Origin: Erysipelotrichaceae bacterium
GTDB taxonomy: Bacteria > Bacillota_I > Bacilli_A > Erysipelotrichales > Coprobacillaceae
NCBI GenBank assembly: GCA_021201315.1
Contig: JAJQFG010000107.1
Location: 1-47,675 of the forward strand
Length of the DNA: 47,675 nucleotides
Reading direction: 5' to 3'
The number at the start of each line of letters is the position of its first letter. Within the stretch, counting starts at the first letter, position 1. The notes under the pieces were generated by a model that worked only from the letters and a program-made list of their open reading frames with translations, was not told where the DNA came from and made no database searches. Positions 618 to 12,357 of the stretch are shown piece after piece. The position numbers and the translations under genes were made by a program.

Positions 618-1151
618 TTATAGTTTGTTTTTTAAAACTTCAAGCACATTAGCAATCTCCTCTGCAGGCTCAGGATTATCACTATTTAACCAATCATAGA
701 GAATGGAAAAAGTACCTTGAAAGACAAATTGACGTATATATTTAACATCTGTTTGTGAGTAGTTGCTTTCATCTATCATATTTTGAAAAATAATATTAAT
801 ACTAGGAATAGCAAATAAATGCTCAGAAAACTCCTGCATAGGTACGGAGCGAACAAGGATGCAAAATAACTCACGTTGATCATACAAATGTTGCAATATT
901 AGTTGCAAAGCATTGGTGCTTTTAGTAATAATATGTTTTAAATCCTCATCTAATTGTTTGAGAAAGTCCATTTCAATTTCATATAGCAGGTCTTCCTGAC
1001 TACCATAGTATTTATAAAAGGTTGTGCGATTGATTTGCGATACTTGACACAGTTCATAAACTGTTATTTTATTTAGTGGCTTTTCTTTTAAAAGCTGAAG
1101 TAATCCATTCTTAAGCATGATTTTACTGATTCGTATTCTTTGGTTTTCCAT
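618..1151 (-). CDS. TetR/AcrR-family transcriptional regulator
   Basis: A 177-residue protein with a TetR helix-turn-helix at about residues 25-60 (KITVYELCQVSQINRTTFYKYY) and a helical C-terminal ligand domain of the short TetR_C_7/8 type. The start at 1151 has a GAGGT site five bases upstream. It is divergent from the HXXEE operon, and the 166-bp gap holds three TGTTGAC elements and two clean palindromes, so it most likely represses that operon and itself. A second, related TetR (34722-35270) has the same N[RS][ST]TFY.YYGSQ recognition helix and a similar palindrome in its own divergent promoter. The ligand is unknown. Confidence 0.9.
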   Translation of the reverse strand: MENQRIRISKIMLKNGLLQLLKEKPLNKITVYELCQVSQINRTTFYKYYGSQEDLLYEIEMDFLKQLDEDLKHIITKSTNALQLILQHLYDQRELFCILVRSVPMQEFSEHLFAIPSINIIFQNMIDESNYSQTDVKYIRQFVFQGTFSILYDWLNSDNPEPAEEIANVLEVLKNKL

Positions 1152-1177
1152 TTTTACCTCGACAAATTCTAAATTTC

Positions 1178-1247
1178 TGTTGACTTTAAAACAATATAAT
1201 CATGTTATGTTGACAACAAAACATTTTAACATCAACAGTTTGTTGAC
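1178..1247. promoter_or_regulatory. TetR operator cluster (TGTTGAC / CAACA-TGTTG palindromes)
   Basis: TGTTGAC occurs at 1178-1184, 1208-1214 and 1241-1247. Two of these lie in palindromes: TGTTGACAACA (1208-1218) and TCAACA-GTT-TGTTGA (1232-1246, six-base arms). They sit between the divergent tetR and HXXEE genes, the expected place for TetR operators. Binding is inferred from position and symmetry. Confidence 0.6.
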
Positions 1248-1317
1248 TTTAATGATTACTGTAAATTATAATGAATTAACAAATATTTGTCAAATTGTTA
1301 TTTAGGAGGTTAATTGT

Positions 1318-1998
1318 ATGAAATTTTGGAGACGAAATTGGTATTATATTGGTGGTATTCTCTTTGTAATTTTAGCCTTTGTAATGGGACTATGGGGTTG
1401 TGATCACTTAAGTAAAATTCGTATTATTTTGATATTTAGTTGGATGGGAATGTTGATGCATCAATTTGAAGAATATGCTTTTCCAGGTGGTTTTCCACTT
1501 ATTTCTAATATGGCAGGACTAGGAGAAACAGAACATCCAGAACGTTATCCATTAAATGCAAGACAAAGTTTTTTGAGTAATGTTATATTTTGTTATTTGA
1601 GTTATATTATTCCTATTTGTTTTCCTAATCTTATTTGGATGGGAGCTTGTCAAGCATTGGCTGGTGTATGGCAACTTCCAGGACATGGTATTGTTATGAA
1701 TATACGTTTAAAAAGTAAATATAATCCTGGACTTGCGTCTACTGCTTTTTTACAGACACCTGTGGCAATTTATTATATTTGGTATGTTATTACTTATTTG
1801 CCAGAAAAAGCAGGACAACTTTGGTGGGGTATTCCAGGATCTATTTTAATGTTGCTTCTTACTTTTATTATTCCAATCCTATTGATGATGGACAAAAATT
1901 CACCTTATCCTTTTGAAGATAGAGAATTATATGGCTATAATAAAGAACATGTAAATGCTCTTTGGGAAGAACGTAAAGCTGCAAAGGAGGAGTGTTAA
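1318..1998 (+). CDS. HXXEE-domain integral membrane protein (first copy)
   Basis: A 226-residue multi-spanning membrane protein carrying the signature HQFEEYAFPGG at about residues 42-52, which defines the HXXEE family (a Pfam family of unknown function). A second conserved patch, GHGIVMN...YNPGL, lies around residues 120-140. Alternating hydrophobic stretches suggest five or six membrane helices; the C-terminus is charged and cytosolic-looking. The start has GGAGG ten bases upstream. It is followed after two bases by a second HXXEE gene, then by two redox genes. Function unknown; the conserved His/Glu residues inside the membrane suggest a metal or heme site, which is inference. Confidence 0.8.
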   Translation: MKFWRRNWYYIGGILFVILAFVMGLWGCDHLSKIRIILIFSWMGMLMHQFEEYAFPGGFPLISNMAGLGETEHPERYPLNARQSFLSNVIFCYLSYIIPICFPNLIWMGACQALAGVWQLPGHGIVMNIRLKSKYNPGLASTAFLQTPVAIYYIWYVITYLPEKAGQLWWGIPGSILMLLLTFIIPILLMMDKNSPYPFEDRELYGYNKEHVNALWEERKAAKEEC

Positions 1999-2000
1999 TT

Positions 2001-2705
2001 ATGGTAAAAAAATTAGATAAATGGTGTGATATTAATTGGATTATTTTTATATGTGTTACAGGTGTTGTTACAGGTGTATTATCTGCGATATATTGGAATG
2101 ATATGCCTTTAGGTGCACAAGGTGCAGTATTTGTAGCATTAATTATGCCTTTTCATGTATTAGAGGAATGGAAGTTTCCTGGTGGTCTTCATATTTTCTA
2201 TAATGTGTTGTTAGGACCAAAAGATATAAAAAAGCAGCAAATTGATAGATTCCCTATGAGCCGACTGACAGATATGATTACTAATGTGGGTTTACAATGG
2301 ATTCCATTATGTTATCTAGTGCTCAGTTTGTTCACTGGCCTTTCTAATGCTACCGCTTTATGTATGATGTTATTATGTTTTATTGAAGTATTAGCACATA
2401 CTGGTGGTGGTATTCTTACCTATTTCTGGCTAAGAAAAGATGGAAAGAAAACCATCTATCATCCAGGTTTTGCTACTTCCTGGATGATGTTCTTGCCAGC
2501 AGGAGTCTACATCTTATCACATTTACAAAATATTACAGGTAGTGATTGGTTATGGGCTATTATTTTATTTGTTGTTATGATGATGATTTGTATTGTCTTA
2601 ACAGAAACACCACTTAAAAAGTGGGTATACAAACAAGAAAAAGGTGTATTTGCCTTTGAAGATGCTAAATATTATGAAAAGTATCCTTCTTTTTGGAAGA
2701 AGTAA
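2001..2705 (+). CDS. HXXEE-domain integral membrane protein (second copy)
   Basis: A 234-residue membrane protein with HVLEEWKFPGG near residues 50-60 and a matching downstream patch (AHTGGG...YHPGFATS), so it is a paralogue of the preceding gene. I place the start at the ATG at 2001 because AAGGAGG (1984-1990) is ten bases before it; an in-frame GTG at 1992 is only one base from that site. The ribosome binding site lies inside the 3' end of the first HXXEE gene, so the two are translationally linked. The copies have diverged well apart, suggesting two non-redundant subunits rather than a recent duplication. Biochemical role unknown. Confidence 0.8.
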   Translation: MVKKLDKWCDINWIIFICVTGVVTGVLSAIYWNDMPLGAQGAVFVALIMPFHVLEEWKFPGGLHIFYNVLLGPKDIKKQQIDRFPMSRLTDMITNVGLQWIPLCYLVLSLFTGLSNATALCMMLLCFIEVLAHTGGGILTYFWLRKDGKKTIYHPGFATSWMMFLPAGVYILSHLQNITGSDWLWAIILFVVMMMICIVLTETPLKKWVYKQEKGVFAFEDAKYYEKYPSFWKK

Positions 2706-2731
2706 TGTAAGCAAATATTAAGGAGAAAATT

Positions 2732-3544
2732 ATGGCAGAAAGAACTGTTATTTATTATTATACTGGTTCTGGAAATACACTTTCTGTTTCCAACAAGATT
2801 GCAGAAGTATTAGGATATACTGATGTTTGTTCAATTTATAGTCTAAAAAATAATGCTTGTATTCCAGATAAATATGATCGTGTGGGAATTGCTACAGCAA
2901 CATGGTTCATTCGCCCACCAAGAATCGTAAAAGAAATATGTGAAAAGATGCAACTTAATCCATCACAAAAGGTTTTCATTATTGCTACATGTGGTGGCTA
3001 TGATGGATTTGTCTTGATTGACCTAAAGGCCATTTTACAGGCTAAAGTTAATGCACCAATTCAGACTTTTATGCTCCCTATGCCTCCTAATCACATTGTA
3101 GGATTTTCTCCGATGCCAGATGGAATTGTAAAAATCTATTTGAATCATGAGAAGAAAGCCACGAAAAAAATTGTAAAAGCAATCCAAAGTGAAAAAAGAA
3201 CGAAAGATCGTAAAGGACGTGGACGAAAGGCATGGAACTGGTGTTCTAGAACATTTAATCTACATTTAGGAGTCGATCGTGATTCTACGGAAGGTGGCTT
3301 TTATACAACGGATGCTTGCATTCATTGTGGAATATGTGAAAAAATCTGTCAAGCAGGTAATATCCATCTTAGTGAAAATGGAGTTGAGTGGGGACATGAT
3401 TGCCAACAATGTATGGCTTGCATTATGTGGTGCCCACATAAAGCCATTTGGCATCCTAATGTGCCTAAAAATAGACGTCGTTATCATCATCCAGATGTTA
3501 CATTATCTGATATGATTCATTCTGGCGAAGGAACAGATAAATAA
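2732..3544 (+). CDS. EFR1-family flavodoxin-ferredoxin fusion protein
   Basis: 270 residues. The N-terminal ~150 residues form a flavodoxin-like fold with the FMN phosphate loop YTGSGNTLS (about 11-19). The C-terminal part carries two [4Fe-4S] motifs: CIHCGICEKIC (about 191-201) and CQQCMACIMWCP (about 224-235). This is the EFR1 layout, a cytosolic electron carrier coupling FMN and iron-sulfur clusters. It has a good site (AAGGAG, nine bases before ATG) and sits between the HXXEE pair and an SDR dehydrogenase, so it plausibly feeds electrons to or from the membrane proteins. The partner is inferred from position only. Confidence 0.88.
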   Translation: MAERTVIYYYTGSGNTLSVSNKIAEVLGYTDVCSIYSLKNNACIPDKYDRVGIATATWFIRPPRIVKEICEKMQLNPSQKVFIIATCGGYDGFVLIDLKAILQAKVNAPIQTFMLPMPPNHIVGFSPMPDGIVKIYLNHEKKATKKIVKAIQSEKRTKDRKGRGRKAWNWCSRTFNLHLGVDRDSTEGGFYTTDACIHCGICEKICQAGNIHLSENGVEWGHDCQQCMACIMWCPHKAIWHPNVPKNRRRYHHPDVTLSDMIHSGEGTDK

Positions 3545-3566
3545 AATCAATTTTAAAGGAGTATTT

Positions 3567-4475
3567 ATGAGCTGGAAATTAGATGATGTACCTAATCTTA
3601 CAGGTAAAGTGATAATTGTTACAGGAGCAAATAGTGGTTTAGGATTTGAAACAACAAAGGAACTTGCCCGTAAAGGGGCAAAAGTTGTTATGGCTTGTCG
3701 AAATCCTCAAAAAGCTAAAAAGGCTATGCAAAAGATAAAAGATGATATTCCTGATGCTGATTTGGATATTATACTTTTAGATTTAGCCAGTCAACAAAGT
3801 GTTGCAGATTTTGCCAATCAATTTAAGAAAAGATATAACCGTCTTGATGTCCTCATCAACAATGCGGGAATTATGGCAGCTCCATATTCAGAAACCATAG
3901 ATGGATTTGAAAACCATTTTGCTACTAATTATCTTGGCCATTTTGCCTTAACGGGTAGATTATTTGATTTATTAGAAGCTACACCAAATGCAAGAGTTGT
4001 CAGTGTTAGCAGCTTAGCATATTTTCTTGGAAATAAAATTAATTTTGATAATTTGTATTATGAACATCGCAAAGGTTATGGTAGATGGAGAGCATATGGA
4101 CGTTCTAAAATGGAAATGCTTTTATTTGCTTATGAAATGCAGCGACGACTTACACGCACAGGTAAATCTACAATTTCGCTTGCTGCTCACCCTGGCTTGG
4201 CACAAACAAATATTATGCCTGCACAAGCAAATAATGCTGTAACTAAGAAATTATTAACATGGCTTTCTTATATATTAAAGCCAACTATTTATGGAGCAAT
4301 GCCTCTTATTCGTGCAGCTACAGATAAAGATGTTAAAGGTGGCGAATATTTTGGCCCATCAAAAGATAGAATGCCAAATGTCGTCAAATCCAATAAAGCT
4401 TCTCATAATCTGGATACGGCAAATAAATTATGGGAAATTTCAGAAGAATTAATAGGACTTTATTATTTAGATTAA
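3567..4475 (+). CDS. Short-chain dehydrogenase/reductase
   Basis: 302 residues with the classical SDR marks: TGANSGLG cofactor loop near residues 19-26, LDVLINNAG near 90-98, catalytic Ser in VSVSSLAYF and the YGRSK (Tyr-x-x-x-Lys) motif around 177-181. The length and the NSGLG/NNAGIM pattern resemble the retinol-dehydrogenase/WWOX-like group, which act on hydrophobic alcohols or ketones. The residues after the cofactor loop (ACRNP) suggest NADP(H). It is the last gene of the TetR-controlled unit and ends at a strong two-way terminator. Substrate unknown; a lipid-like substrate would fit the two neighbouring membrane proteins but is a guess. Confidence 0.88.
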   Translation: MSWKLDDVPNLTGKVIIVTGANSGLGFETTKELARKGAKVVMACRNPQKAKKAMQKIKDDIPDADLDIILLDLASQQSVADFANQFKKRYNRLDVLINNAGIMAAPYSETIDGFENHFATNYLGHFALTGRLFDLLEATPNARVVSVSSLAYFLGNKINFDNLYYEHRKGYGRWRAYGRSKMEMLLFAYEMQRRLTRTGKSTISLAAHPGLAQTNIMPAQANNAVTKKLLTWLSYILKPTIYGAMPLIRAATDKDVKGGEYFGPSKDRMPNVVKSNKASHNLDTANKLWEISEELIGLYYLD

Positions 4476-4477
4476 CA

Positions 4478-4512
4478 AAAATAGATTGTACTTTTAATGT
4501 ACAATCTATTTT
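4478..4512. terminator. Bidirectional terminator between convergent genes
   Basis: Perfect 14-bp stem: AAAATAGATTGTAC (4478-4491), 7-base loop, GTACAATCTATTTT (4499-4512). A/T runs on both sides suit termination in both directions; the right arm overlaps the stop codon of the minus-strand CoA-binding gene. Confidence 0.85.
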
Positions 4513-7658: not shown

Positions 7659-8405
7659 GTGTTTGCAAAAGAAAGACAAGAAGATATTGTCAATAAGATT
7701 AATCTTCAAGGAAGTGTTAAAGTCAAAGATTTAGCTTTAGAATATGATGTTACAGAGGATTGCATTCGTAAGGATTTATCATTACTGGAAAGACAGGGAC
7801 TTTTAAAAAAAGAATATGGTGGAGCTATTAGTATTAGAAATAATCCTCATCTGTATAGCAGTACTGATCGCAAAAAAACACCAAATAATGAAAGAATCAT
7901 TATTGCTCAAAAAGCAATAGAGTTAATTAATGAAAACGAAACAATTTATCTTGATGTTTCCTTAAGCAGTTTGGAAATTGCGATATTATTAAATGAATCT
8001 TCTAAGGAATTAACCATTATTACAAATATGATTGATGTATTAAATACATTAAGAGCTAATCAAAATATAAAACTTATTTTTATAGGAGGAACAATCAATC
8101 ATGAAGGAGATGCTTTTTGGGATTCTATGTCTTGTATGATGTTGGATTATTTTAGAATAGATAAAGCCTTTTTAGGAGTTGTTGGGGTCAATACAAACAA
8201 TGGTCAAATATCAACTTATTATATAGATGATGGTTTTATGAAACGCAAAGTCATAGCTCAAAGTCATAAGAGTTATTTGATGTGTGAAAGTAGAAAGTTT
8301 AAAGAAGATGGAGATTTTATCTTTGGTAGTTTGAATGATATTGATGGTTTAATTGTTAGTGATATAACTGATAATCTTAATGATTTTGATGTGGATATTA
8401 TATAG
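7659..8405 (+). CDS. DeoR-family transcriptional regulator
   Basis: 248 residues. The N-terminal DeoR winged helix (KERQEDIVNKI...VKVKDLALEYDVTEDCIRKDLSLLERQG, residues 4-48) is followed by a sugar-isomerase-like effector domain (GGTINHEGDAFWDSM). The GTG start at 7659 has AGAGGTG about seven bases before it. It lies eight bases upstream of the glycyl radical enzyme gene in the same direction, so it probably controls the operon in response to a phosphorylated sugar intermediate, as is usual for DeoR proteins. No operator could be pinned down in the AT-rich gap upstream. Confidence 0.9.
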   Translation: MFAKERQEDIVNKINLQGSVKVKDLALEYDVTEDCIRKDLSLLERQGLLKKEYGGAISIRNNPHLYSSTDRKKTPNNERIIIAQKAIELINENETIYLDVSLSSLEIAILLNESSKELTIITNMIDVLNTLRANQNIKLIFIGGTINHEGDAFWDSMSCMMLDYFRIDKAFLGVVGVNTNNGQISTYYIDDGFMKRKVIAQSHKSYLMCESRKFKEDGDFIFGSLNDIDGLIVSDITDNLNDFDVDII

Positions 8406-8413
8406 GAGAATTT

Positions 8414-10765
8414 ATGGAATTGGTGCAAACGAAACGAATAGAAGTATTAAAAGAAAAAATGTTAAATGAACCACGTTATGCTTCGATTGAACAGGCGCGT
8501 ATTATTACGCGTGTTTATCAAGAAAATGAAAATTTATCTATTCCTAAAAAACGTGCATTGTCTTTAAAAGCAGCGTTAGAAGAAATGGAAATAGGCGTAG
8601 AAAAGGAAGAATTGATTGTAGGGAATCGTACAAAAGGTGTGAGATACGGTGTGGTTTTTCCAGAAAGTGGCTGCTCTTGGATTAATAAAGAATTTGAAAC
8701 ATTGCCTACACGTCCGCAAGATCAGTTTTTGGTAAGGGATGAAGATATTAAAGAATTTAGAGAAGTGATTTATCCTTATTGGCAAGGACGTTCTATGGAA
8801 GATGTGATTATGGAACGTGGTCAAAAGGATATTAAAAGTATTGAAAAAGTCGTAAAAATCAATCAAAAAGATCATGCGCAAGGGCATATTTGTCCTGATA
8901 CAGCATTATGGTTAAAGCTCGGCCCTGCAGGTTTAAGAAAGCAAGCACAAGAGAAACTTCAAATATGTCGAGAAGATCAAAAAGAATTTTATGAATGTGT
9001 TGTTATTGTATTAGATGGTGCTATTACTTTTATGCAAAGGTATCATGATTATATTAAAAATATGATTTTAGATGTTGAACCAGCTTATCAAGTTACTTTA
9101 CAGAAGGTTGCTGATAATTGTATGAATTTATCTATACGACCACCGCAAAGCTATCATGAAGCATTACAATCTATTTGGTTCTTATTTGTCATATTACATA
9201 TGGAATCCAATGCATCGTCATTTTCACCAGGAAGATTGGATCAATATCTTTATTCTTATTATAAAGAGGATAAAGAAAAAGGTATCATAGATGATCAATA
9301 TGCATTAGAATTATTAGAATGTTTATGGCTAAAATTCAATCAAATTGTTTATTTACGTAATCAAAATAGTGCTAAATATTTTGCGGGATTCCCGATTGGT
9401 TTTAATATAGCTATAGGAGGAGTAGATGAAAATGGTAACGATACTTATAATGAATTATCACTTCTATGTTTAAAAGCACAAGAACATTTAGGTTTACCAC
9501 AACCCAATTTATTGGTAAGACTTAATAAAAATACATCTCACGAACTCATGCAAGCTGCTATAAAAGTAGTTGCTAAAGGAAGTGGTATGCCTCAATTCTT
9601 TAATGACGAAGCAATTATCAATACAATGATCAATGATCTTAATATTGAAGAAAAAGATGCTCGTAATTATGCAATTGTTGGATGCGTTGAATTAACCACC
9701 CATGGTAATAATTTAGGTTGGTCAGATTCAGGTATGTTTAATTTTAATAAAGTATTAGAATTAACATTGAATCATGGTAAGTGTTTGCTTACTAATGAAC
9801 AACTAGGTTTGGATTTGGGAAGTATTGAAACCTATGAGACTTTTGAAAATTTAGAAGAAGCTTTTAGAAAGCAAATAGATTATTTCATAGATAAAATGAT
9901 CAAAGGATTAGAAATTGTAGAAAAAGCTCATCAGGATTGCTTACCTTCAGCCTTTTTATCAACAGTGATTGATGACTGTATGGAAAAAGGATTGGATGTT
10001 ACCAAAGGTGGTGCTAAATATAATCTATCAGGTATTCAGATGATACAGGTAGCTAATCTTGCTGATTCTTTAGCTGCTATTAAACAACTTGTCTATGATG
10101 AGCATATGATATCAAAACATGAATTATTAGAATCATTACAACATGATTTTAAAGGTCATGAAATGACCCAAACCATGTTATTAAATAAAGTCCCTAAATA
10201 TGGTAATGATATTGCATGGGTAGATAATATGGGAGCTAAATGGACAAATTATTTTAGAGAAAGAATGAAAGATTATACAAATTATCGTGGAGGCTTATAT
10301 CATACTGGTATGTATACTGTTTCTTCACATGTACCAATGGGAGAAAATGTAGGAGCTTCACCTGATGGACGAAATGCCTTAAGCCCTTTGGCTGATGGCG
10401 GATTATCACCTGTTTATGGTAGAGATATGAGTGGACCTACCGCTGTCTTAAAATCGGTTTCTCGTATGAGTAATTCTTGTACAACAAATGGTGGTTTATT
10501 AAATATGAAATTCTTACCTGAATTCTTTGAAACTCAATCAGGTAGAGATAAGTTTGAAATGTTTTTGAGAGCTTTTGTAGAACTGGAAGTTCCACATATT
10601 CAATTTAATGTTGTACGTAAAGAAGATTTGATTGATGCTAAAATTCATCCTGAAAAACATCGCTCCCTTACAATTAGAGTAGCTGGTTATACAGCTTATT
10701 TTGTAGAATTAGCAGGTAAATTACAAGATGAAATCATTGAACGAACAACCTATGATAACATCTAG
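8414..10765 (+). CDS. Glycyl radical enzyme of the YbiW/PflD type
   Basis: 783 residues, typical for this superfamily. The active-site Cys is Cys424 in VGCVELTTHG, followed by Glu426: the GCVE pattern marks C-O/C-N eliminating enzymes (dehydratases, CutC) rather than true pyruvate formate-lyase, which has a Cys-Cys pair. The glycyl radical loop is RVAGYTAYF with Gly758. The oxygen-sensitive radical is installed by the activase encoded next. The order DeoR - GRE - activase - FSA matches E. coli ybiW-ybiY-fsaA, whose GRE opens 1,5-anhydroglucitol 6-phosphate to 1-deoxyfructose 6-phosphate. I infer that or a close substrate; residue-level comparison is needed to separate it from PflD-like 1,5-anhydromannitol 6-phosphate enzymes. 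Confidence 0.9.
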   Translation: MELVQTKRIEVLKEKMLNEPRYASIEQARIITRVYQENENLSIPKKRALSLKAALEEMEIGVEKEELIVGNRTKGVRYGVVFPESGCSWINKEFETLPTRPQDQFLVRDEDIKEFREVIYPYWQGRSMEDVIMERGQKDIKSIEKVVKINQKDHAQGHICPDTALWLKLGPAGLRKQAQEKLQICREDQKEFYECVVIVLDGAITFMQRYHDYIKNMILDVEPAYQVTLQKVADNCMNLSIRPPQSYHEALQSIWFLFVILHMESNASSFSPGRLDQYLYSYYKEDKEKGIIDDQYALELLECLWLKFNQIVYLRNQNSAKYFAGFPIGFNIAIGGVDENGNDTYNELSLLCLKAQEHLGLPQPNLLVRLNKNTSHELMQAAIKVVAKGSGMPQFFNDEAIINTMINDLNIEEKDARNYAIVGCVELTTHGNNLGWSDSGMFNFNKVLELTLNHGKCLLTNEQLGLDLGSIETYETFENLEEAFRKQIDYFIDKMIKGLEIVEKAHQDCLPSAFLSTVIDDCMEKGLDVTKGGAKYNLSGIQMIQVANLADSLAAIKQLVYDEHMISKHELLESLQHDFKGHEMTQTMLLNKVPKYGNDIAWVDNMGAKWTNYFRERMKDYTNYRGGLYHTGMYTVSSHVPMGENVGASPDGRNALSPLADGGLSPVYGRDMSGPTAVLKSVSRMSNSCTTNGGLLNMKFLPEFFETQSGRDKFEMFLRAFVELEVPHIQFNVVRKEDLIDAKIHPEKHRSLTIRVAGYTAYFVELAGKLQDEIIERTTYDNI

Positions 10766-11672
10766 TGCCTTAGTATTTGATATCAAACGTTTTGCAGTGC
10801 ATGATGGGTCAGGACTTCGTGCCACAGTTTTTTTTAAAGGATGCCCCTTAAGATGTAAATGGTGTCAAAATCCCGAAGGCTTATCACCAAAGCAGCGTCC
10901 TATTTACTTTGAAAACAGTTGTATTCATTGCCATCGTTGCGAACAAGTCTCCTATGATAATCAAATAACTTATCAAAACAATAGACCTTATTTTAATCTT
11001 AATTACCATGGCAACTTTGATAATCTTATATATCATTGTCCTAGCAATGCTATACGTTATGATAGTCAACCATATACTATTGAAGAACTAATTAATACAA
11101 TCAAACAAGATGAAGTCTTCTTTAAACAAGGGGGTGGGGTCACCTTTTCGGGTGGGGAACCATTCATGCAAGGTCAATACCTCATAGAACTTCTCAAACG
11201 CTGTAAACAACAAAACATCAACACAGCCATTGAAACAACACTTTATGCATCGTTTTCACTTATCCAACAAGCACTACCATATTTAGATATTATATATGTA
11301 GATTTCAAAGAATTTGATGAAACAAAACACAAAAACTTTACTCAAGTCTCTTCAAAAATCATCAAAGAACATATACAATATATATTAGAAAGTAAATATA
11401 AAGATAAAGTTATTATCAGAACCCCATTGATACCATCGATGACTGCAACAGATGATAACATAACGAATATTTCTAAGTTCATCTATGATATATATCCTGA
11501 AGTTAAATACGAATTACTCAATTATAATCCCTTAGCTTCAGCAAAATATTCATTAGTTGATTTAGAATATGAATTACCACAATATCAGAAATTTACCCCA
11601 CAACAAATGCAACATTTCTATGATATTGTATTACAAACTGGTTTAAAAAATTTAATTAAAGAAGGAGAATAA
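10728..11672 (+). CDS. Glycyl-radical enzyme activating enzyme (radical SAM)
   Basis: 314 residues. The radical-SAM motif GCPLRCKWCQNPE has Cys39, Cys43 and Cys46; the GGGVTFSGGEPFMQ motif near residues 135-150 is standard for activases. It abstracts a hydrogen from the partner's Gly758 using SAM. Most non-PFL activases carry an insert with two [4Fe-4S] ferredoxin motifs; here the insert keeps only Cys65, Cys68, Cys71 and Cys104, enough for one cluster. The gene overlaps the GRE by 38 bases, implying coupled translation. An alternative start is the ATG at 10752; neither has a strong ribosome binding site. Confidence 0.9.
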   Translation: MKSLNEQPMITSSALVFDIKRFAVHDGSGLRATVFFKGCPLRCKWCQNPEGLSPKQRPIYFENSCIHCHRCEQVSYDNQITYQNNRPYFNLNYHGNFDNLIYHCPSNAIRYDSQPYTIEELINTIKQDEVFFKQGGGVTFSGGEPFMQGQYLIELLKRCKQQNINTAIETTLYASFSLIQQALPYLDIIYVDFKEFDETKHKNFTQVSSKIIKEHIQYILESKYKDKVIIRTPLIPSMTATDDNITNISKFIYDIYPEVKYELLNYNPLASAKYSLVDLEYELPQYQKFTPQQMQHFYDIVLQTGLKNLIKEGE

Positions 11673-11676
11673 TGAC

Positions 11677-12357
11677 ATGGAATTTATTATTGATACTGTT
11701 AATTTAGAAGAAATTAGAGATGCTGTTGATCATATGCCAATTGTTGGAGTAACTAGTAATCCATCAATTGTGAAAGCAACTAGCCCTGAAAACTTTTTTG
11801 ATCATATGCGAGAAGTTAGAAAGATTATAGGTATGGAAAGAAGCTTACATATTCAAGTGATTTCTAAGGATGCAGATACAATTGTCAAAGAAGCACATCG
11901 CATCTTAGAAGAAGTTGATGATCAGGTTTATATCAAGGTTCCTGTATCTTATGAAGGTGTTAAAGCTATTAAGTTATTAAAGGCTGAAGGTGTGAATGTG
12001 ACTGCAACAGCAGTTTATGATTTAATGCAAGCTTATATGGCTTTGGCTGCAGGTGCTGATTATATTGCACCATATGTTAATCGTATTGGTAATTTAGGTA
12101 ATGATCCTATGGAATTGATTAATGAATTGTCTAATCGTATTGTTCAAGATGATTATGATTGTAAGATTTTAGCTGCAAGCTTCAAGGGTGTTCAACAAGT
12201 ACGTGATGCATTTAATTATGGTGCTCAGGCAATTACAGCTCCTGTATCAGTATTAAAACAAATCTTTGCAAATCCAAGTATCGAAAAAGCAGTGAATGAT
12301 TTTAATGCTGATTGGTATGCTATATATGGTGAAGGCAAAGGCATTTGTGATCTATGA
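11677..12357 (+). CDS. Fructose-6-phosphate-aldolase-like protein (FSA/TalC family)
   Basis: 226 residues, the short transaldolase/FSA type. The Schiff-base lysine is Lys87 in YIKVPV; Gln60 in LHIQV and the YIAPYVNR segment match FSA, whereas true transaldolases have Glu at the Gln position. FSA cleaves fructose 6-phosphate and, in the E. coli anhydroglycolysis route, 1-deoxyfructose 6-phosphate to glyceraldehyde 3-phosphate and hydroxyacetone. Its place directly after a GRE and activase (GAAGGAG site, four bases after the activase stop) supports the latter role. A GldA-type reductase for hydroxyacetone is not in the window. Confidence 0.88.
   Translation: MEFIIDTVNLEEIRDAVDHMPIVGVTSNPSIVKATSPENFFDHMREVRKIIGMERSLHIQVISKDADTIVKEAHRILEEVDDQVYIKVPVSYEGVKAIKLLKAEGVNVTATAVYDLMQAYMALAAGADYIAPYVNRIGNLGNDPMELINELSNRIVQDDYDCKILAASFKGVQQVRDAFNYGAQAITAPVSVLKQIFANPSIEKAVNDFNADWYAIYGEGKGICDL

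Follow-up and report, generated by a model that had tools for sequence, protein, structure and literature searches.

A recurrent TetR-linked operon of paired HXXEE membrane proteins, EFR1 and an exchangeable reductase in an Erysipelotrichaceae bacterium and other carriers

The first 5 kb of a 47,675-nt stretch of DNA from an Erysipelotrichaceae bacterium (assembly GCA_021201315.1, contig JAJQFG010000107.1, positions 1 to 47,675; hereafter the window) contains five open reading frames (ORFs): a TetR-type repressor gene on the minus strand and, divergent from it on the plus strand (1318-4475), genes for two HXXEE-family membrane proteins (HXXEE-A and HXXEE-B), an EFR1 protein and a short-chain dehydrogenase/reductase (SDR). 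The operon structure, promoter anatomy and conservation of this set are solid, and we found no description of the combination of paired HXXEE proteins, EFR1 and a reductase in the open-licence literature. The reading we favour, tentatively and with a probability a little short of even, is that of an inducible operon for detoxification or catabolism: the HXXEE pair would cut a membrane-soluble compound in the manner of MucF, a published HXXEE enzyme, and EFR1 together with a carbonyl reductase would reduce the product.

Operon structure and promoters

The features of the locus are as follows.

618-1151, minus strand: TetR-type repressor with a TetR_C_8 C-terminal domain (PF14278 profile match)
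1232-1246, no strand assigned: operator-like palindrome TCAACAGTTTGTTGA, overlapping the -35 box of the HXXEE promoter
1243-1272, plus strand: promoter of the four-gene operon, TTGACT-18-TATAAT (11 of 12 consensus positions)
1265-1293, minus strand: tetR promoter, TTGACA-17-TATAAT (12 of 12 consensus positions)
1318-1998, plus strand: HXXEE-A, membrane protein with six transmembrane helices, 226 aa (PF13787; H48-x-x-E51-E52, H123)
2001-2705, plus strand: HXXEE-B, membrane protein with six transmembrane helices, diverged paralogue of A, 234 aa (PF13787; H52-x-x-E55-E56, H133)
2732-3544, plus strand: EFR1, a flavodoxin-like domain fused to two [4Fe-4S] cluster motifs (NF038196; motifs in the translation)
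3567-4475, plus strand: SDR of the PRK06197 subfamily, related to protochlorophyllide reductases (NF004846)
4478-4512, plus strand: intrinsic terminator hairpin closing the operon (14-pair stem)

Gaps of 2, 26 and 22 nt separate the plus-strand genes (A/B, B/EFR1 and EFR1/SDR, respectively) and, with the ORF coordinates, agree with the first-pass annotation of this DNA, which had described four tightly packed genes divergent from a TetR. The start of HXXEE-B was set at the ATG at 2001 in accordance with its homologues; the automated ORF call began at a GTG at 1992. The hairpin (z -7.3) was equalled by none of 200 shuffles, and because it is followed by a gene for a CoA-binding protein on the opposite strand and then by mnmG, the four-gene set looks like one closed operon. 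Purifying selection acts on all five genes (dN/dS 0.03-0.08 in comparison with two congeners, L015 and L016), and the base composition of the operon genes shows no departure from that of mnmG.

The repressor passes the PF14278 TetR_C_8 cut-off (44 bits, cut-off 26.1); its PF00440 TetR_N DNA-binding domain, at 19.5 bits, is under the cut-off of 24 and aligns at the expected place (18-58). The tetR and operon promoters overlap and have the palindromic ATTATAAT in common. When the TetR/HXXEE-A intergenic region of the window was compared with those of 28 other loci, the palindrome core AACAGTYTGTTGAC was exact in 24 of the 29, the plus-strand promoter pattern TTGAC...TA[TG]NAT was present in all 29, and the tetR-side pattern TTATAAT...GTCAA in 26; in the alignment, palindrome and promoters stand out against otherwise variable intergenic DNA. 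The earlier mention of clear operators thus holds, with a palindrome placed over the -35 box and its core conserved at most loci. Within the window, three matches with at most one mismatch were found (two of which are a single position read on opposite strands) against 0.05 expected. Across the whole genome the operator 16-mer has a single exact copy, at the tetR/HXXEE-A site, and a search for a wider regulon returned this 1 exact and 11 two-mismatch sites, the backward control giving 1 and 2 matches. A TetR orthologue diverges from HXXEE-A in 29 of the 34 loci having more than 1000 nt upstream. Such adjacency is not universal for HXXEE genes, since several distant loci (e.g., L012-L014, L099-L102, L105 and L106) have no TetR within about 1.5 kb. 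We infer that TetR represses the operon and that the operon is inducible; the repressor and its single exact operator would offer a direct route to the inducing compound.

Recurrence, distribution and the exchangeable reductase

A scan for HXXEE-A in genomes of named species yielded 45 loci, which were searched with reference proteins; gene content was counted in the 33 that extend 3400 nt or more downstream of HXXEE-A, the other 12 being too short or without an A-type match. HXXEE-B follows HXXEE-A in 32 of the 33, as expected from the claim that the two diverged copies belong together, and 13 carry a third HXXEE gene belonging to the A group. EFR1 is present in 23 loci and an SDR in 14, all of which also carry EFR1, so the two are recurrent partners as had been proposed, and the neighbourhood is conserved well beyond this strain. 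Nine loci have instead an aldo/keto reductase (AKR) with a [4Fe-4S] domain; two of these are remnants (L047 and L056), and eight of the nine accompany EFR1, the exception being the L047 remnant. SDR and AKR were never found together (0 of 33), one locus (L028) has EFR1 with neither, and nine loci possess HXXEE genes but lack all of EFR1, SDR and AKR, including the lone HXXEE-A of a Helicobacter. A survey from the SDR side gave the same association: among 400 genomes of the family of one carrier, four hold a close relative of the SDR (E 1e-60 or better), and in all four EFR1 and HXXEE genes adjoin it; at least one of these genomes (G490) was already among the 45 loci.

That the neighbourhood is a strain-specific oddity was considered and rejected, as it recurs at other loci and in other families and phyla, a recurrence that puts the gene pattern far beyond chance. 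Gene order by itself is no proof of a pathway, and the genes might be neighbours without a shared job, which we regard as barely probable at all in view of the recurrence over 33 loci, the repeated A-B pairing and the swap of non-homologous reductases in one slot.

Of all these points, this exchange is the most informative. The window's EFR1 has the same flavodoxin-like domain and two [4Fe-4S] motifs as the NF038196 EFR1 family, whose whole profile it aligns (1-242 of 242; 186 bits, cut-off 75). Its SDR matches NF004846/PRK06197 with 343 bits (cut-off 268), and its translation shows TGANSGLG, NNAG and YGRSK, which we take to be the nucleotide-binding and Y-x-x-x-K motifs; in a sequence search of the PDB, the closest solved chain was 3rd5, followed by protochlorophyllide reductases. 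In sister operons the AKR, also a family match over its cut-off, stands in the slot of the SDR, so that a PRK06197-type SDR and a [4Fe-4S] AKR are mutually exclusive partners of EFR1 at paired-HXXEE loci. SDRs and AKRs are unrelated enzyme superfamilies that perform the same kind of carbonyl/alcohol redox chemistry, and from this knowledge of the families, the slot most likely requires a carbonyl/alcohol redox step. No partner or function for the EFR1 family was found in the open-licence literature, where, in the excerpts available, an EFR1 gene appears merely as an entry in a C. difficile expression table.

The reductases might be thought to indicate transformation of steroids or bile acids (or retinoid-like compounds), with HXXEE deconjugating or isomerizing the substrate and the SDR or AKR acting as alcohol dehydrogenase. 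Both superfamilies supply hydroxysteroid dehydrogenases, several of the named carrier genera are presumably gut-associated, and both family and PDB sequence comparison place the SDR closest to PRK06197 and the protochlorophyllide-type SDRs. However, no known steroid-pathway enzyme was recognized near any of the loci inspected, one carrier is an Anaerolineaceae metagenome-assembled genome (MAG), and relatives also occur on plasmids of soil and plant bacteria; we thus strongly doubt this explanation.

The distribution of the operon is patchy. Among 148 relatives, close copies (96-97% identity) were found in three congeners only, with weaker matches in three more genomes; 11 of 392 genomes of the phylum had any HXXEE match, seven of them over the cut-off; and among 397 genomes of the family of G485, eight had any match and only two exceeded 50% identity. 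Carriers within Bacillota include Erysipelotrichaceae, Lachnospiraceae, Oscillospiraceae, unassigned Clostridiales MAGs, Diplocloster agilis and Eisenbergiella tayi (taxon labels of MAGs are as deposited). Beyond that phylum, HXXEE-A is 79% identical in Helicobacter sp. 11S02596-1, 63% in Gordonibacter sp. 28C and 55% in the Anaerolineaceae MAG, and in a tree of 61 proteins, some on long branches, the Helicobacter, Gordonibacter and Chloroflexota sequences are interspersed with those of Bacillota. This placement, together with identities of 55-79% across phyla, points to an operon that is horizontally mobile.

Some cassettes are decaying: in L019, HXXEE-A, EFR1 and SDR are all broken, and together with L007, L056 and L047 this group shows broken HXXEE-A, EFR1 or SDR genes, or an AKR remnant without EFR1. 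Such decay suggests loss where the compound is absent. Synthesis or remodelling of a membrane lipid or isoprenoid of the cell's own, rather than defence or catabolism, would accord with the membrane location of the HXXEE proteins and with the strong purifying selection. The patchiness (8 of 397), TetR control, decay (L019, L056) and spread across phyla fit an accessory response better, leaving this proposal with slim prospects.

The HXXEE pair and its candidate chemistry

Both HXXEE proteins exceed the PF13787 cut-off of 25 bits (63.7 for A and 36.5 for B) with an invariant H-x-x-E-E motif, and in the 61-protein tree A-type and B-type proteins lie on opposite sides of a split with 100/100 support. 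An alignment of 42 A- and B-type proteins, drawn from 92 HXXEE proteins (90 from other loci and the two of the window), has 13 invariant columns, including H48, E51, E52, N64, N88, H123 and Y135 of HXXEE-A. A family alignment of 19 diverse HXXEE proteins, which takes in the window's A and B and leaves out the candidate loci L072 and L075, shows no substitution at H48, E51, E52, P56, H123 or G138. The pair had been expected to share a site and, as far as this is testable, the invariant residues are shared by A and B.

AlphaFold2 models of HXXEE-A (pLDDT 93, pTM 0.88) and HXXEE-B (pLDDT 85, pTM 0.85) each have six long helices and additional short ones. With helices taken from the models, lysine plus arginine residues number 16.5 per sequence in the loops on the N-terminal side and 1.6 on the other side for A-type proteins, and 16.8 and 1.5 for B-type proteins; as nearly all lie on one side, the proteins are predicted to be N-in, with both termini and the conserved residues cytoplasmic. 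The conserved residues of A and B are predicted at the cytoplasmic helix ends and, judging from the order of the helices, the invariant His, Glu, Glu and His would converge in one pocket. Model A was searched by Foldseek (PDB and BFVD) and VIA (the 1000 top PDB chains), and model B by Foldseek (PDB). Neither had a Foldseek match in the PDB at E 0.001 or better, and the best VIA match of model A (Z 6.3, root-mean-square deviation 5.1, 145 residues aligned) was within the range of common helical bundles. Among the weak rows of the fold searches are a BFVD entry called 'Ceramidase' and a TMEM120A chain; none of the sterol isomerase (EBP), ceramidase-like or elongase-like folds stood out in these comparisons, which is not evidence against them. 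Sequence searches of the PDB gave no match with HXXEE-A alone and, with a profile of A3, Rubisco matches at chance level only.

HXXEE proteins had been described in the first-pass annotation as having no known function, which is outdated: the family member MucF removes the N-1 acyl chain from reutericyclin by hydrolysis (PMC9112991, PMC8757879, PMC10161427). According to these papers, all 16 additional homologues that were assayed had activity, and 10 of these came from strains lacking the biosynthetic cluster (PMC10161427, PMC9112991); deletion of mucF leads to accumulation of the toxic compound (PMC9112991); MucF is active as a hydrolase when expressed in Escherichia coli (PMC10161427); and a protein counts as MucF-type if it exceeds 50% identity and 90% coverage relative to MucF35 (PMC10161427). 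In the other open-licence papers retrieved, HXXEE is mentioned only as a domain in tables or gene comparisons. The MucF system of S. mutans and others, which converts reutericyclin to mutanocyclin, resembles the window operon in joining an HXXEE membrane protein with TetR genes, which lie in the same cluster as mucF (PMC9112991). It protects against a lipophilic acylated compound and its genes are spread among commensals, which we count as further likenesses. In contrast, MucF is a single short protein (0.5-kb gene), whereas the window has a pair of about 230 aa each in a redox operon, and the genes listed for the mucF cluster include a DHA2 transporter and no EFR1, SDR or AKR.

With MucF as the model, the favoured course of events would begin with a lipophilic compound that enters the membrane and binds TetR, which would then leave the palindrome at the -35 box. 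HXXEE-A and HXXEE-B would be made as a pair and would cut the compound at a His/Glu/Glu/His site at the cytoplasmic face, most likely by hydrolysis of an acyl group, as by their family member MucF. EFR1 and a soluble carbonyl reductase (the SDR here, the [4Fe-4S] AKR elsewhere) would reduce the carbonyl or quinone product that is released or remains. We infer this chemistry and its substrate; the operon's conservation is a matter of observation. Of the earlier interpretation, the single TetR-controlled operon is retained and the HXXEE family without known function is not; its suggestion of a hydrophobic substrate is probable, HXXEE being a membrane enzyme.

Several points weigh against the MucF-like reading. 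Many of the 33 loci seemingly come from one MAG project and two (L029 and L033) from one MAG, so the loci are not fully independent. The putative active site is without confirmation from the fold, as neither HXXEE model clearly resembles a solved structure. A and B, at about 230 aa, are longer than the product of the 0.5-kb mucF gene. Finally, HXXEE as a mere hydrolase leaves unexplained why EFR1 sits beside an NAD(P)-type SDR.

The last point leads to the main rival, a membrane redox system in which the HXXEE pair binds a redox metal through two His and two Glu and is driven by EFR1, with the SDR or AKR performing a further step. An SDR works without ferredoxin, which means that EFR1 must serve something else, and the operon encodes no further enzyme but the HXXEE pair; moreover, EFR1 accompanies all 14 SDRs, 22 of the 23 EFR1 loci have an intact or remnant reductase, and the conserved HXXEE residues are predicted on the cytoplasmic side, which is also the side of EFR1. 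Against this stand the nine loci with HXXEE genes and none of EFR1, SDR or AKR, the lone Helicobacter gene among them, which argue that HXXEE is a hydrolase independent of an electron carrier, and the characterized relative, MucF, which acts as a hydrolase in E. coli (PMC10161427). We therefore consider the rival rather unlikely. A bolder form, for which the likelihood is low indeed, would make A and B an obligate heterodimeric metalloenzyme of the membrane that accepts EFR1 electrons on its cytoplasmic side for reductive cleavage or reduction of a lipophile and represents a new class of anaerobic membrane oxidoreductase, with the SDR or AKR finishing the product.

If instead the acyl-hydrolase reading is correct, many gut anaerobes would share an inducible, transferable and as yet unnamed route for disarming or using a membrane-active compound, which could be of host, dietary, drug or microbial origin. 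HXXEE chemistry, represented so far by a single antibiotic deacylase, would come to include membrane proteins that act in pairs and are coupled to redox enzymes, and EFR1 proteins would gain a concrete, testable set of partners.

Neighbouring genes and other HXXEE arrangements

Near the cassette, a PF14512 (TM1586-type) nitroreductase occurs in 11 of the 33 loci and a PF00881 nitroreductase in 12; genes for a flavodoxin, an Rrf2 regulator or a Sir2-like protein are frequent companions. The genome of the window has a third HXXEE gene on a separate contig (L012, G000:C54:6152-6781). Next to it are genes for a nitroreductase and an Rrf2 regulator, whose identities to neighbours of Clostridiales cassettes are 65-69% and 64-67%, respectively (a distant nitroreductase match of 30% being excluded). 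A Gordonibacter array has A and B together with a protein that groups with the L012-type third HXXEE (support 100/96). Such neighbours tie the operon to genes of reductive or electrophile-type stress.

Elsewhere in the window, between rsmG and a noc-like gene (7659-12357), are genes for a DeoR-type regulator, a glycyl radical enzyme, a radical-SAM activase and a fructose-6-phosphate aldolase-like protein; the glycyl radical enzyme matches TIGR01774 (766 bits, cut-off 678), and the substrate-specific models for such enzymes were all below their cut-offs.

Three HXXEE arrangements outside the window differ from the operon described here. A distant homologue with a divergent TetR (L008, 1480-2106, in G077) has an in-frame TGA beyond which the frame continues toward a normal-looking C-terminus, indicating either recoding or disruption of the gene. 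L010 (78-2139), from a different genome of the same order, shows a paired arrangement of a separate kind, with one TetR gene flanked by two HXXEE genes. The lone HXXEE-A of Helicobacter sp. 11S02596-1 (L045, 4054-5603) lies near two small ORFs of 89 and 90 aa that are related to each other and resemble RelE/YafQ toxins.

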